From a virus: a stretch of DNA of 22,135 nucleotides. Location of the stretch: the IMG/VR virus record IMGVR_UViG_3300010300_000129, positions 1 through 22,135 of that record, one strand, 5' to 3'. Positions 16,339 through 19,991 of the stretch are shown piece after piece. How positions within the stretch are numbered: position 1 is the stretch's first letter; each line of letters starts with the position of its first letter. A program made the translations under genes and the position numbers. Below the pieces are notes generated by a model. The model was not told the DNA's origin, did not search any database, and saw only the letters and a list, made by a program, of their open reading frames with translations.

Positions 16339-17442
16339 TCAGGAGAAAGTTTGAACGTCAACAGAACCTTCGGGCATCTCGAAATCTGCATCAACTTTGT
16401 CATACAGTTCAAGGAATGCTTGCTTGGTTTCATCATCGAAACGATTCACGCAGACTTGAATTGCTTTACCTTTGTCACCAAAGATAGAGTATGCACGAAG
16501 GATGTGAACCAGACGGCGAGTAGAGATGATCTCTTCGATACCACCATCATAGAAGGTCTTACGGATGATATCAGCCCAGTCCACAAGACGCTGACAAAAG
16601 TTCTCATCGTGAGTGCCGACAGAAGCAGCAATGCGGAGGAGAATCTTCAATTCATTAGCAGGAGTCGGATACTCTTGCTCAAAGGTCACAGGGAAACGCT
16701 CAAGGAATGCTTCGTTCAGAACGTTGGTGCCAATGAAGCGACCATCATCAGATCCCTTACCCTTGGTGTTTGCGGTAGCGATGACGTTGAATCCTGCGGA
16801 AGGAGTCACCATCTTACCAATCTTTTTCAGGAAGACACCTTTACCTTCGAGGATCGATTGAAGGCAAAGAATCTTGTTGGAAGCCAGGTCAATCTCGTCA
16901 AGCAGTAGAATCGCACCGCGCTCCAAGGCTTCGACGACCGGACCATTGTGCCAAACGGTCTCACCGTTGACAAGACGGAATCCACCAATGAGGTCATCTT
17001 CATCAGTTTCAATAGTGATGTTGACACGGATCAGTTCTCGTCCGAGTTGGGCACACGCTTGCTCAACAGAGAACGTTTTACCATTGCCCGAGAGACCCGT
17101 GATAAACGTAGGGTAGAAATGACGGGACTGAATAATTTTCTTAACATCGTTGAAATTACCAAACTTGACGAAGGTATCATCTTTTTGAGGAACGAGGGTC
17201 AGTTCAGATGTGGGCAAGACAGCAGGTTGCTTATAAGTTTCTTCGATCTGTTCGCGAGCGGAATCAACATTCCACTTGCCGCGTCCAACTTTGTAGTTCT
17301 CAAGTCGTCGGGTAACAGTTTGGTATGCAATACCATTAGCAGCACAGTAACCACGAACATCACCAGCGGTGAACTCAGTACCGTACATGTTGGTCAGATC
17401 ATCAATGATTTGATCGTCAGTCATTTTGATGGTGCGAGGCAT
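16339..17442 (-). CDS. cobS: CobS/MoxR-like AAA+ ATPase
   Basis: The 367-residue product is a MoxR-clade AAA+ protein. An N-terminal domain of about 60 residues with a helix-turn-helix look precedes the motor: Walker A GLSGNGKT at 116-123, Walker B LLDEID at 180-185, sensor 1 IATANT at 221-226, and the arginine-finger region NEAFLERF near 243-250. It is commonly called CobS in cyanomyoviruses, after the ATPase subunit of aerobic cobaltochelatase. MoxR ATPases normally act with a VWA-domain partner, and a CobT-like VWA gene lies just upstream. No CobN-like catalytic subunit is present. The gene has its own promoter at 17466. It could remodel proteins or assist metal insertion in the host. Confidence 0.88.
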   Translation of the reverse strand: MPRTIKMTDDQIIDDLTNMYGTEFTAGDVRGYCAANGIAYQTVTRRLENYKVGRGKWNVDSAREQIEETYKQPAVLPTSELTLVPQKDDTFVKFGNFNDVKKIIQSRHFYPTFITGLSGNGKTFSVEQACAQLGRELIRVNITIETDEDDLIGGFRLVNGETVWHNGPVVEALERGAILLLDEIDLASNKILCLQSILEGKGVFLKKIGKMVTPSAGFNVIATANTKGKGSDDGRFIGTNVLNEAFLERFPVTFEQEYPTPANELKILLRIAASVGTHDENFCQRLVDWADIIRKTFYDGGIEEIISTRRLVHILRAYSIFGDKGKAIQVCVNRFDDETKQAFLELYDKVDADFEMPEGSVDVQTFS

Positions 17443-17444
17443 TG

Positions 17445-17493
17445 TGCGTTTGTTTCAATGAAGTTATTATAGTGCAAACGCAGTAGGATCAAA
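17445..17493 (-). promoter_or_regulatory. Promoter with 8-bp inverted repeat ahead of cobS-like gene
   Basis: TATAAT (17466-17471) is preceded by a TTTGAT (17488-17493) with a 16-base spacing, directed at the CobS-like gene 24 bases downstream. An inverted repeat, TGCGTTTG (17445-17452) and CAAACGCA (17475-17482), encloses the -10 box and start region. The arms would lie in the promoter spacer and in the leader just before the ATG, a layout compatible with an operator. Confidence 0.65.
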
Positions 17494-17511
17494 GTGGGTA
17501 GTGGACAGTTC

Positions 17512-17661
17512 TCAAGACCGTCCAGTACGGCGTCGATACTCCCAGTACATAGCATTGAGCATCCACGACTCAGCGAGTGACTGGGGTCCTTTTTTCAGGA
17601 CACGAGTCTGCTCTCTAGTCAGTTTCACCATCTTTGCATACTCTTCTTTCCAAGAATCCAT
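17512..17661 (-). CDS. 49-aa basic small protein
   Basis: The ATG at 17661 opens a 49-codon frame lying 4 bases after the stop of the VWA gene. The product begins MDSWKEEYAKMVKLTREQTR and ends with a Trp/Tyr/Arg-rich helix (ESWMLNAMYWEYRRRTGRS). It is basic and probably entirely helical, with no membrane segment. I prefer this Met to an in-frame start at 17694, which overlaps the VWA gene by more. The function is unknown. Its place between the VWA protein and the AAA+ ATPase suggests a link to that pair, but it ends before the promoter of the ATPase. A short tail of this type could dock on either partner. Confidence 0.6.
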   Translation of the reverse strand: MDSWKEEYAKMVKLTREQTRVLKKGPQSLAESWMLNAMYWEYRRRTGRS

Positions 17662-17665
17662 GGTA

Positions 17666-19822
17666 TTACGAGATAAGTTGGACGAATTCGCCAAGAACTT
17701 TTTTATTTAGTTTTTTGTTCTTCAAAGATTTAACAAATGCTGACTTGATCTGGGTCTTGGTTGCATCTTCACCTACTGTAAACTCAGCATTTTGTGACAC
17801 AGAGTTAGCATTGATACCAAAGTAGACATCATATGCAGAAGACTTGATTGAGAAAGACTTGTTCTTCTTCCAAGATGAATAAATTTTATCATACTCTTCA
17901 GAATTATAATCACAATGCATCTTCATAAAGGAAGTAGCATCACGACCAGTGATTAAACGGAATCCTACAAAAGAAGTTTGTGGGAATTTATCCTTAAGAT
18001 TGTTCAATAGACAATCAGTGAAAGAAGTATATCGATATCCAATGGAGTAAGTTGTTCCGAGTTTACGATCACGGATAAAACATCCATCGTGACGGATCTG
18101 CTTCATGCCCATGATGCTGCAGTTGCGTCGATAAACTTCAGCATAGAAAGGAACTGGGCTTGCTTCGCCGTCAGTAAGAATCACACACTGAACTTTCTCC
18201 ACTTTGGTTTTCTTCTGAAAATGTGGAATGATCTGGTGCAGAGTGATCAACGCTTCATTCAAAGGAGTACCAGACAAAGAGAGACAAGGTGGTTCACGAT
18301 AGTCAACACGGTATCGGAAAGAGTATGCAATGCGATAGATATCACGCATCTGTTGCTCAGACTCTGATGCTCGAACATTGCTTGTGAGAATATTCATCAG
18401 GCAATATCGATTGTCAACAACCAGATCAAACTCTTTCTTCTTTTGATGATCTACTGGAGTGAGAGCACGATTGCTGTTGTACTTTCGAGACAACCACTCA
18501 TAAGTGAATGCATATACTTCGAAAGGAATAGATGCTTTCTTGCAGAACCAAATCAGATTATAAAGTTGTTTGATGGTGTCAAGCATCACATCACCCATAG
18601 AACCAGACCAATCAAGAATGAAGATCAGTCCATGATTCTTTCCGTCTGGGAGGGAGGTGACTTTCTTAAAAAGATCTTCGTTGTATTTGTAGGTATGGAG
18701 TTTGCTGCAATCAAGCATTCCAGTGCTAGAGACAGTAGCACGAGAATAAGAAGTAGCAGATTTTCGACACTCAAATTCTTTAACGAGGTAGTTGACTTCT
18801 TTTTGTGCAGACTTCTTGAATTTTTTGTAGTCATCATCGACTGTGGCAAACATATCTGGCCAGTTGCCACCTTCTCCGTACATAGAGTACATCTCTTCAT
18901 GAGCATCCGTCTGCATTTTGAATGAGTCTCGAATGTGCTGATGAACTTCGGAGTTCTTGGCAATAGCAGTATCTAGGTTCACCGTGGGAACTTCAAGGTA
19001 AACATTATCATTCATGCCACGCGCAGCAAGATCAGCGATAGCATCTTCCAGAGCCTCAGTAGTCTTTACTTCAGGTTCTTCTTGCTGTGCAGTTCCGCCG
19101 TAAGACTTGTTCAGTTCTTCCATATCATTCTCTTCACCCTCAATCTGATCTTCACCAGGTCCAAGATCTTCTCCTTCGCCCTGTCCCTCGTTATTGTCTG
19201 CAGAGGGTGATTGATCGGCAGGAGCACCATTCGATCCCTGAGGCATATCCTGAGGCATCTCAGGGCGTTCTTGCATCTGCTTCTTAGAGACAGCATACAT
19301 CTCTTCTGCAGCGCGATATGCTTCCTCTACAGTCTCTGCAGCATCAATCAAATTGATGATACGCATCTCTTCATCAGAGTAGAAGGGAATATCAATATGC
19401 TGACCAAGTTTGAAGTGAAGGTTGACGCGATCAGCAAAGCTCATCTTGCTAACGTCTTCTCCCTCAAGATTGAAGAAGTCTTTCTCATGCATCTCCTTGT
19501 ATCCAATATGGAAAGACTTGCGTAGACCAGGATATTTTCGTTTCATTAGTTTCTCAATACGTGGATCTTCCACGATATTGAAGAAGGTCATGGGAGCAGA
19601 GCAGACTTCACTCAGTTCTTGATCAGGGGTGAAGAGTGCGTGACCAACTTCATGACCCACCAGCATGTCATACATGACATTGGATGCTTTCTCCCACAAA
19701 GGCAGAACCAGGACGCGGGTGTGGACGTTGAAAGATGCAGTCTCACACTGCTTGTGCTCAACCACCAGGTCCTCAGTGGCAAGCAGTTTGGCAAGTTGAG
19801 ACTTGATTTCGTGGCGAGTCAT
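17666..19822 (-). CDS. CobT-like VWA protein with HEXXH metallopeptidase motif
   Basis: The 718-residue product has three parts. Residues 1-180 contain H57-E-V-G-H61, an HEXXH zinc motif, and NIVEDPRIE at 82-90, supplying a further acidic ligand, as in the VWA-metallopeptidase/CobT family. Residues 190-255 are acidic and low-complexity, like the linker of CobT. A VWA domain begins at about 395 with MIDAS motif D404-W-S406-G-S408. VWA partners of MoxR ATPases deliver the client to the motor, and the matching ATPase follows two genes later. The function in cyanophages is unproven; it has been annotated as a peptidase. I chose the ATG at 19822; a TTG at 19852 is possible. Confidence 0.85.
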   Translation of the reverse strand: MTRHEIKSQLAKLLATEDLVVEHKQCETASFNVHTRVLVLPLWEKASNVMYDMLVGHEVGHALFTPDQELSEVCSAPMTFFNIVEDPRIEKLMKRKYPGLRKSFHIGYKEMHEKDFFNLEGEDVSKMSFADRVNLHFKLGQHIDIPFYSDEEMRIINLIDAAETVEEAYRAAEEMYAVSKKQMQERPEMPQDMPQGSNGAPADQSPSADNNEGQGEGEDLGPGEDQIEGEENDMEELNKSYGGTAQQEEPEVKTTEALEDAIADLAARGMNDNVYLEVPTVNLDTAIAKNSEVHQHIRDSFKMQTDAHEEMYSMYGEGGNWPDMFATVDDDYKKFKKSAQKEVNYLVKEFECRKSATSYSRATVSSTGMLDCSKLHTYKYNEDLFKKVTSLPDGKNHGLIFILDWSGSMGDVMLDTIKQLYNLIWFCKKASIPFEVYAFTYEWLSRKYNSNRALTPVDHQKKKEFDLVVDNRYCLMNILTSNVRASESEQQMRDIYRIAYSFRYRVDYREPPCLSLSGTPLNEALITLHQIIPHFQKKTKVEKVQCVILTDGEASPVPFYAEVYRRNCSIMGMKQIRHDGCFIRDRKLGTTYSIGYRYTSFTDCLLNNLKDKFPQTSFVGFRLITGRDATSFMKMHCDYNSEEYDKIYSSWKKNKSFSIKSSAYDVYFGINANSVSQNAEFTVGEDATKTQIKSAFVKSLKNKKLNKKVLGEFVQLIS

Positions 19823-19991
19823 CTGCTTTGTTCGTATGAACGTAGTATACAAAAGAACCTCGCTTGTTAGGCGAGGTCATGTGACGCTTCTTGAACTGGC
19901 GCAGTGCTTCACGCCGTGCTCTCATTGCTTGCGGTTTCAGTTTTCGTTTCTGTTCTTTCTTGCTGTGGTGTTGCCAGTTTGGAGTGGTCAT
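19773..19991 (-). CDS. 72-aa basic ORF overlapping two other frames
   Basis: The frame opens at ATG 19991 and ends at 19773, 50 bases inside the VWA gene. The product is very basic, beginning MTTPNWQHHSKKEQKRKLKP and including MRARREALRQFKKRH, which resembles nucleic-acid-binding tails. It overlaps an acidic 49-aa ORF in another frame by 83 bases. An AGGAAG lies very close to the ATG, so the ribosome binding site is poor. The hairpin at 19857-19877 lies inside this frame. It could be a true overlapping gene, the target of a frameshift from the acidic ORF, or a chance frame. The first two-thirds looks protein-like. Confidence 0.45.
   Translation of the reverse strand: MTTPNWQHHSKKEQKRKLKPQAMRARREALRQFKKRHMTSPNKRGSFVYYVHTNKADDSPRNQVSTCQTACH
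19850..19877 (-). terminator. Hairpin with T-rich tail before VWA gene
   Basis: On the minus strand ACCTCGC and GCGAGGT form a perfect 7-bp stem around loop CTAACAA, followed by TCTTTTG. It lies about 28 bases before the VWA start codon. It may be a weak intrinsic terminator or attenuator, but it also lies inside the basic 72-aa frame. Confidence 0.4.

Follow-up and report, generated by a model that had tools for sequence, protein, structure and literature searches.

The MoxR-type ATPase gene and the VWA gene of this marine T4-like phage probably encode an AAA+ remodelling machine and a VWA partner with a peptidase-like head, rather than a cobaltochelatase. The window, the whole 22,135-nucleotide stretch of IMG/VR record IMGVR_UViG_3300010300_000129, corresponds to the replication region of a relative of the T4-like cyanophages. 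The remodelling reading is based on the protein families, the linkage of the two genes, the conservation of both metal sites, a zincin-like structural model, the promoters and the absence of CobN from 21 viral records. Abundant ocean viruses have cyanophage 'cobS' among their core genes, and it frequently appears in tallies of B12 auxiliary metabolic genes. Should the two proteins form a remodelling protease, the B12 reading would be wrong across a very large data set, and the invariance of a protease motif in a linked pair found universally would point to an important step of cyanophage infection. The features of the region are listed below.

16339..17442 (-): MoxR/CobS/NorQ-type AAA+ ATPase, 367 aa, PHROG_249 (AAA_5 and PHROG matches)
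17445..17482 (-): 8-bp inverted repeat flanking the -10 element (RNA folding energy -8 kcal/mol, z -2.8)
17466..17471 (-): predicted -10 element TATAAT, 29 nt upstream of the ATPase start, conserved in relatives
17512..17661 (-): basic 49-aa ORF, PHROG_869 (E 6e-13), an optional insert
17666..19822 (-): metallopeptidase-like (HEXXH), acidic linker and VWA/MIDAS protein, 718 aa, PHROG_459 (PHROG match, conserved motifs)
17669..18820 (-): its C-terminal VWA region, residues 335-718, with DxSxS, T519 and D551 (AlphaFold2 pLDDT 76.9)
19268..19822 (-): its N-terminal domain, residues 1-185, predicted zincin-like (AlphaFold2 pLDDT 89.5, weak PDB matches)
19844..19849 (-): predicted -10 element TATACT, 27 nt upstream of the VWA start, conserved in relatives
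19856..19878 (-): predicted intrinsic terminator preceding the VWA promoter, also found in relatives

The ATPase and its VWA partner

The MoxR-clade ATPase proposed by an earlier, sequence-only reading of this DNA was borne out. The protein matches PHROG_249 (E 6e-139; labelled 'cobS, porphyrin biosynthesis') and contains a domain of the AAA_5/MoxR type (AAA_5, E 2e-18), with the Walker A, Walker B, sensor and Arg residues of a MoxR AAA+ protein; the P-loop, DE box, TAN and Arg residues are invariant across 13 phages. Its profile matches in the PDB are midasin, CobS, CbbQ and NorQ. The VWA protein begins with ATG and matches PHROG_459 (E 4e-250), a family labelled 'peptidase'. Both identities exceed chance, since the phage-family matches are of the order of E 1e-139 and 1e-250.

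The H57-E58-H61 and D404-x-S406-x-S408 motifs of the VWA protein sit at the positions claimed for them, and T519 and D551 complete the MIDAS. A check suggested at the time, conservation of HEXXH and MIDAS across homologues, gave a clear answer in an alignment of 114 VWA proteins. HEXXH was intact in all 112 that cover the site, a sample biased by one scan pattern that included HEVGHAL; it was also intact in 17/17 loci reached solely through the ATPase, with two further loci truncated at the site, and in 14/14 isolate loci. The NxxED motif (N82/E85/D86) was kept in 114/114, as were D404, S406, S408 and D551, and T519 in 113/114.

The AlphaFold2 model of the N-terminal domain shows strands and consecutive helices, with HEXXH on helix 48-64 and NxxED on helix 78-96, a predicted fold with a zincin-like layout. 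PDB fold matches were weak (E 0.09 to 2.6), the best being the zincins ArdC, selecase, abylysin and PprI, to which the domain has no sequence match. The nearest named viral models were VWA, CobT-like and peptidase proteins of other phages and haloarchaeal viruses. A profile of the VWA protein found no match among PDB sequences. In Pseudoalteromonas phage XG4 (L015:4869-7111), the VWA and metallopeptidase halves lie on separate ORFs in swapped order, running VWA, peptidase and then ATPase; the ATPase frame is broken near the P-loop, and the record is marked UNVERIFIED.

Linkage and genomic context

Both genes are T4-like cyanophage core genes, placed between gp46 and gp45. The order in the window is gp46 (cut by the edge), epimerase, VWA, 49-aa ORF, ATPase, DUF3310 and gp45, followed by gp44, RegA, Hsp20, DNA polymerase, UvsX and helicase; the common order in relatives is gp55-gp47-gp46-VWA-variable small ORFs-ATPase-gp45-gp44. 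Co-occurrence of the ATPase and VWA genes in related phages, on which the sequence-only reading had staked its case, was found by two routes. Among 133 IMG/VR loci, some of which share one contig, 109 hold both genes, with VWA upstream of the ATPase on the same strand in 109/109; in the 24 loci with one gene, the contig ends within 1.9 kb of it. A single-sequence scan of viral contigs gave 1 locus, and an alignment query was required for the full set. By tblastn, 463 phage records gave a match to the VWA protein and 458 gave one to the ATPase at a coverage of at least 80%, with equal counts for Synechococcus (365), Cyanophage (61) and Prochlorococcus (24) records; these are totals, not record-by-record comparisons, and include many near-identical isolates.

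The genes also move together. The pair is relocated as a unit in S-CRM01 and Stenotrophomonas phage DLP6, and phages of heterotrophic hosts have it as well. The pair also turns up, in more distant form, in an Ochrobactrum phage, Pseudomonas phage nickie, where the pair adjoins DNA ligase and polymerase, Vibrio phage ICP2 and Klebsiella phage p4727. Phage-like MoxR/HEXXH-VWA loci were also seen within bacterial assemblies (L165, L163, L164 and L166; the assemblies are Phormidium willei, Buttiauxella, Kluyvera and a Piscirickettsiaceae MAG), and integrase, PhoH-like or DNA polymerase genes lie near those that were examined in detail. In the Kayvirus Staphylococcus phage G1 (L010:4837-5679), the MoxR-like ATPase has a DUF7192 protein downstream of it (E 2e-92), not a recognisable VWA protein.

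The basic 49-aa ORF noticed between the two genes is indeed there, with 11 K/R against 6 D/E, and begins 4 nt past the VWA stop. Its suggested co-occurrence with the pair did not hold up: it lies between the two genes in only 20/107 loci, its homologues occur at other places in isolates, and P-HM1 and Pelagibacter phage HTVC008M have the pair with no intervening ORF. It was therefore rejected as a third component.

Promoters and terminators

Each gene appears to stand under its own predicted promoter of sigma70-type and early type. Upstream of the ATPase, a -10-like hexamer was found in 100/102 relatives (88 exact TATAAT), 27-47 nt before the start, and upstream of VWA in 85/89, 27-32 nt and nearly always 27-29 nt before the start, against 22 and 15 expected; intrinsic terminators lay upstream of the ATPase in 62/102 and of VWA in 46/89, against 0.1 expected, all expectations coming from shuffles that ignore the relatedness of the sequences. 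The late motif ATAAATA was at chance level, upstream of VWA in 0/89 and of the ATPase in 4/102 relatives; it was present in 4/8 sampled genes of the Syn9 late region, several structural genes among them.

A promoter and an inverted repeat had been described ahead of the ATPase, and both are present: TATAAT and an 8-bp repeat with arms TGCGTTTG/CAAACGCA at 17445-17452 and 17475-17482. The accompanying idea that the partners can be tuned separately is supported by their own early-type, conserved promoters, but the inverted repeat is not a conserved element. It was not seen in the same form among the relatives inspected, which usually show a terminator further upstream, and it was rejected as a conserved regulator. 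Terminator-then-promoter modules recur, at 19856-19878 and in the upstream regions of IMG/VR loci; standing before single genes, such modules may be a general punctuation of the replication region.

Relationship to CobT and the cobalamin question

The VWA protein had no match to the CobT models PF06213, PF11775 and TIGR01651, and the ATPase scored 70.4 bits against the CobS NCBIfam equivalog cut-off of 558.55. In hhalign comparisons, a profile of the N-terminal domain matched the CobT-like N-terminus of p4727-type phage proteins at 96.8% probability, and these in turn matched cellular CobT at 96.0%. The direct comparison with cellular CobT gave 9% and was not significant, and a direct profile link between the two was rejected; they are linked solely through the intermediate phage proteins.

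Cellular CobT was collected from a scan of 80 genomes. In the alignment of 20 loci, one of which (L185) was disregarded because of a wrong frame, HEXXH is missing and other residues stand in place of NxxED. A separate genome-contig scan for cellular CobT gave four loci that resemble prophage or phage DNA. HEXXH is kept in p4727 and in L163, L165 and L166. Since cellular CobT lacks HEXXH and these four relatives keep it, the CobT N-domain appears, from these alignments, to be a degenerate version. The link to CobT suggests that a cobaltochelatase subunit shares ancestry with a metallopeptidase. With HEXXH lost from cellular CobT, 'peptidase' suits the phage protein better than 'CobT' as a name. 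Pseudomonas phage nickie (L008:1358-3439) offers a naturally dead-peptidase relative of the p4727 protein: in its CobT-like partner the two HEXXH histidines and the NxxED aspartate have been lost jointly; peptidase activity would thus not be essential in every relative.

The cyanophage cobST pair has been described as core genes within a viral CobST cluster, and the 'peptidase' annotation of cyanophage cobT has been called mistaken (Liu et al. 2021, PMC8651126). Judged by motif conservation, this last statement does not fit the invariant HEXXH. No CobN-type subunit had been visible with the pair, and a wider search agreed: CobN (PF02514) was found in 0/21 viral records, with controls that responded, and it is absent from 3/4 bacterial genomes carrying such pairs. 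One further statement in the literature concerns a different CobS. It comes from a review in which cobS, named as the final-step enzyme, was not found in cyanobacterial hosts (PMC2984593).

Proposed function and alternatives

The mechanism that we infer, from hexamer and docking through proteolysis to timing and target, would run as follows. The two genes would be expressed from their separate sigma70-type promoters, and the ATPase would probably assemble into a hexameric ring. The MIDAS of the VWA protein may serve for docking, either to the ring or to the substrate, and the zincin-like N-terminal domain would act on the pulled or remodelled protein, most likely by cutting it. The pair would operate in the replication phase, on some host or phage protein. 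A more specific version is doubtful: an early AAA+ protease directed at one particular host protein, such as a defence or RNA polymerase component, which it would unfold and cut, with cellular CobT as a dead-peptidase relative. The sequence-only preference for remodelling and proteolysis over cobalamin came through the three tests set for it (linkage, motif conservation and CobN) without refutation; remodelling and proteolysis as such are inferred.

The pair could instead be a true CobST that joins host CobN (or ChlH) and raises cobalamin or pseudocobalamin for ribonucleotide reductase, as has been proposed (PMC8651126). CobS is among the nearest solved structures to the ATPase profile (E 5e-34), and Pfam CobT and CobT_C domains occur in some phage relatives. 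We consider this very unlikely, given how far the ATPase falls below the CobS cut-off, the lack of a CobT match and the CobN results above. In addition, SAR11, the host of the pair-bearing HTVC008M, is reported to be B12-auxotrophic (PMC9296465), and an intact peptidase site, invariant in the phage family and lost in cellular CobT, is left unexplained. An activator of the NorQD/CoxDE/CbbQO type, with a ring that opens up a metalloenzyme and a HEXXH domain whose role is to carry or sense metal, not to cut protein, would account for NorD of the NorQD complex being the best PDB match to the VWA model (E 1.3e-4), for a CbbQ_C domain above its cut-off in the ATPase (23.8 vs 20.6 bits) and for NorQ and CbbQ among the ATPase matches. 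ViaA-, NorD- and CbbO-type partners function without proteolysis, a point against the main reading. In zincins the glutamate of HEXXH, invariant here, serves as catalytic base and is not required for metal binding alone, and the hosts of pair-carrying phages differ widely in their metalloenzymes, so that such an activator is decidedly unlikely. Rubisco activation in the manner of CbbQO was given low weight despite CbbQ_C, because the phages of heterotrophic hosts carry the pair too.

A machine for virion assembly or maturation, remodelling and cleaving structural proteins, has the same domain architecture behind it, together with the precedent of ATV p618/p892 (both in PMC7824862). Unlike several Syn9 structural genes, neither gene has a late ATAAATA promoter, and the pair lies among cyanophage replication genes, or beside DNA ligase and polymerase in nickie. 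Because of these promoters and this gene context, a late virion role is possible but less favoured, and we regard it as unlikely. An AAA+ remodelling machine with a peptidase-headed VWA partner is the reading that we retain.

Comparison with known systems

The cyanophage pair is already published (PMC8651126, PMC3037559), and so is the idea of remodelling plus a peptidase, which was put forward for jumbo phages (PMC7824862) and so cannot be claimed as new here. The present analysis adds a survey of the motifs, a comparison with CobT, the cases of relocation and domain splitting, and the terminator-promoter modules. A MoxR ATPase paired with an N-terminal metallopeptidase-vWA protein was described in group 2.2 jumbo phages (Iyer et al. 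2021, PMC7824862), and the architecture is matched here, with a MoxR gene beside a vWA domain fused to an N-terminal metallopeptidase. The likeness, drawn from the published description, extends to the kinds of genes, the domain order and the remodelling/proteolysis hypothesis; Atu_ph07, tried as the source of the examples ASV44729/ASV44728, gave no match and is not their source. The earlier system was described for jumbo phages, whereas the promoters here oppose a purely late virion role. The viral CobST cluster (PMC8651126) includes the cyanophage pair and is read as cobalamin-related, whereas the peptidase motif found here is invariant. With the bacterial pairs NorQD, CbbQO, RavA-ViaA and CobST, the phage pair has in common the ATPase clade and a MIDAS-bearing VWA partner; the intact HEXXH of a predicted zincin-like domain is what sets the phage partner apart.
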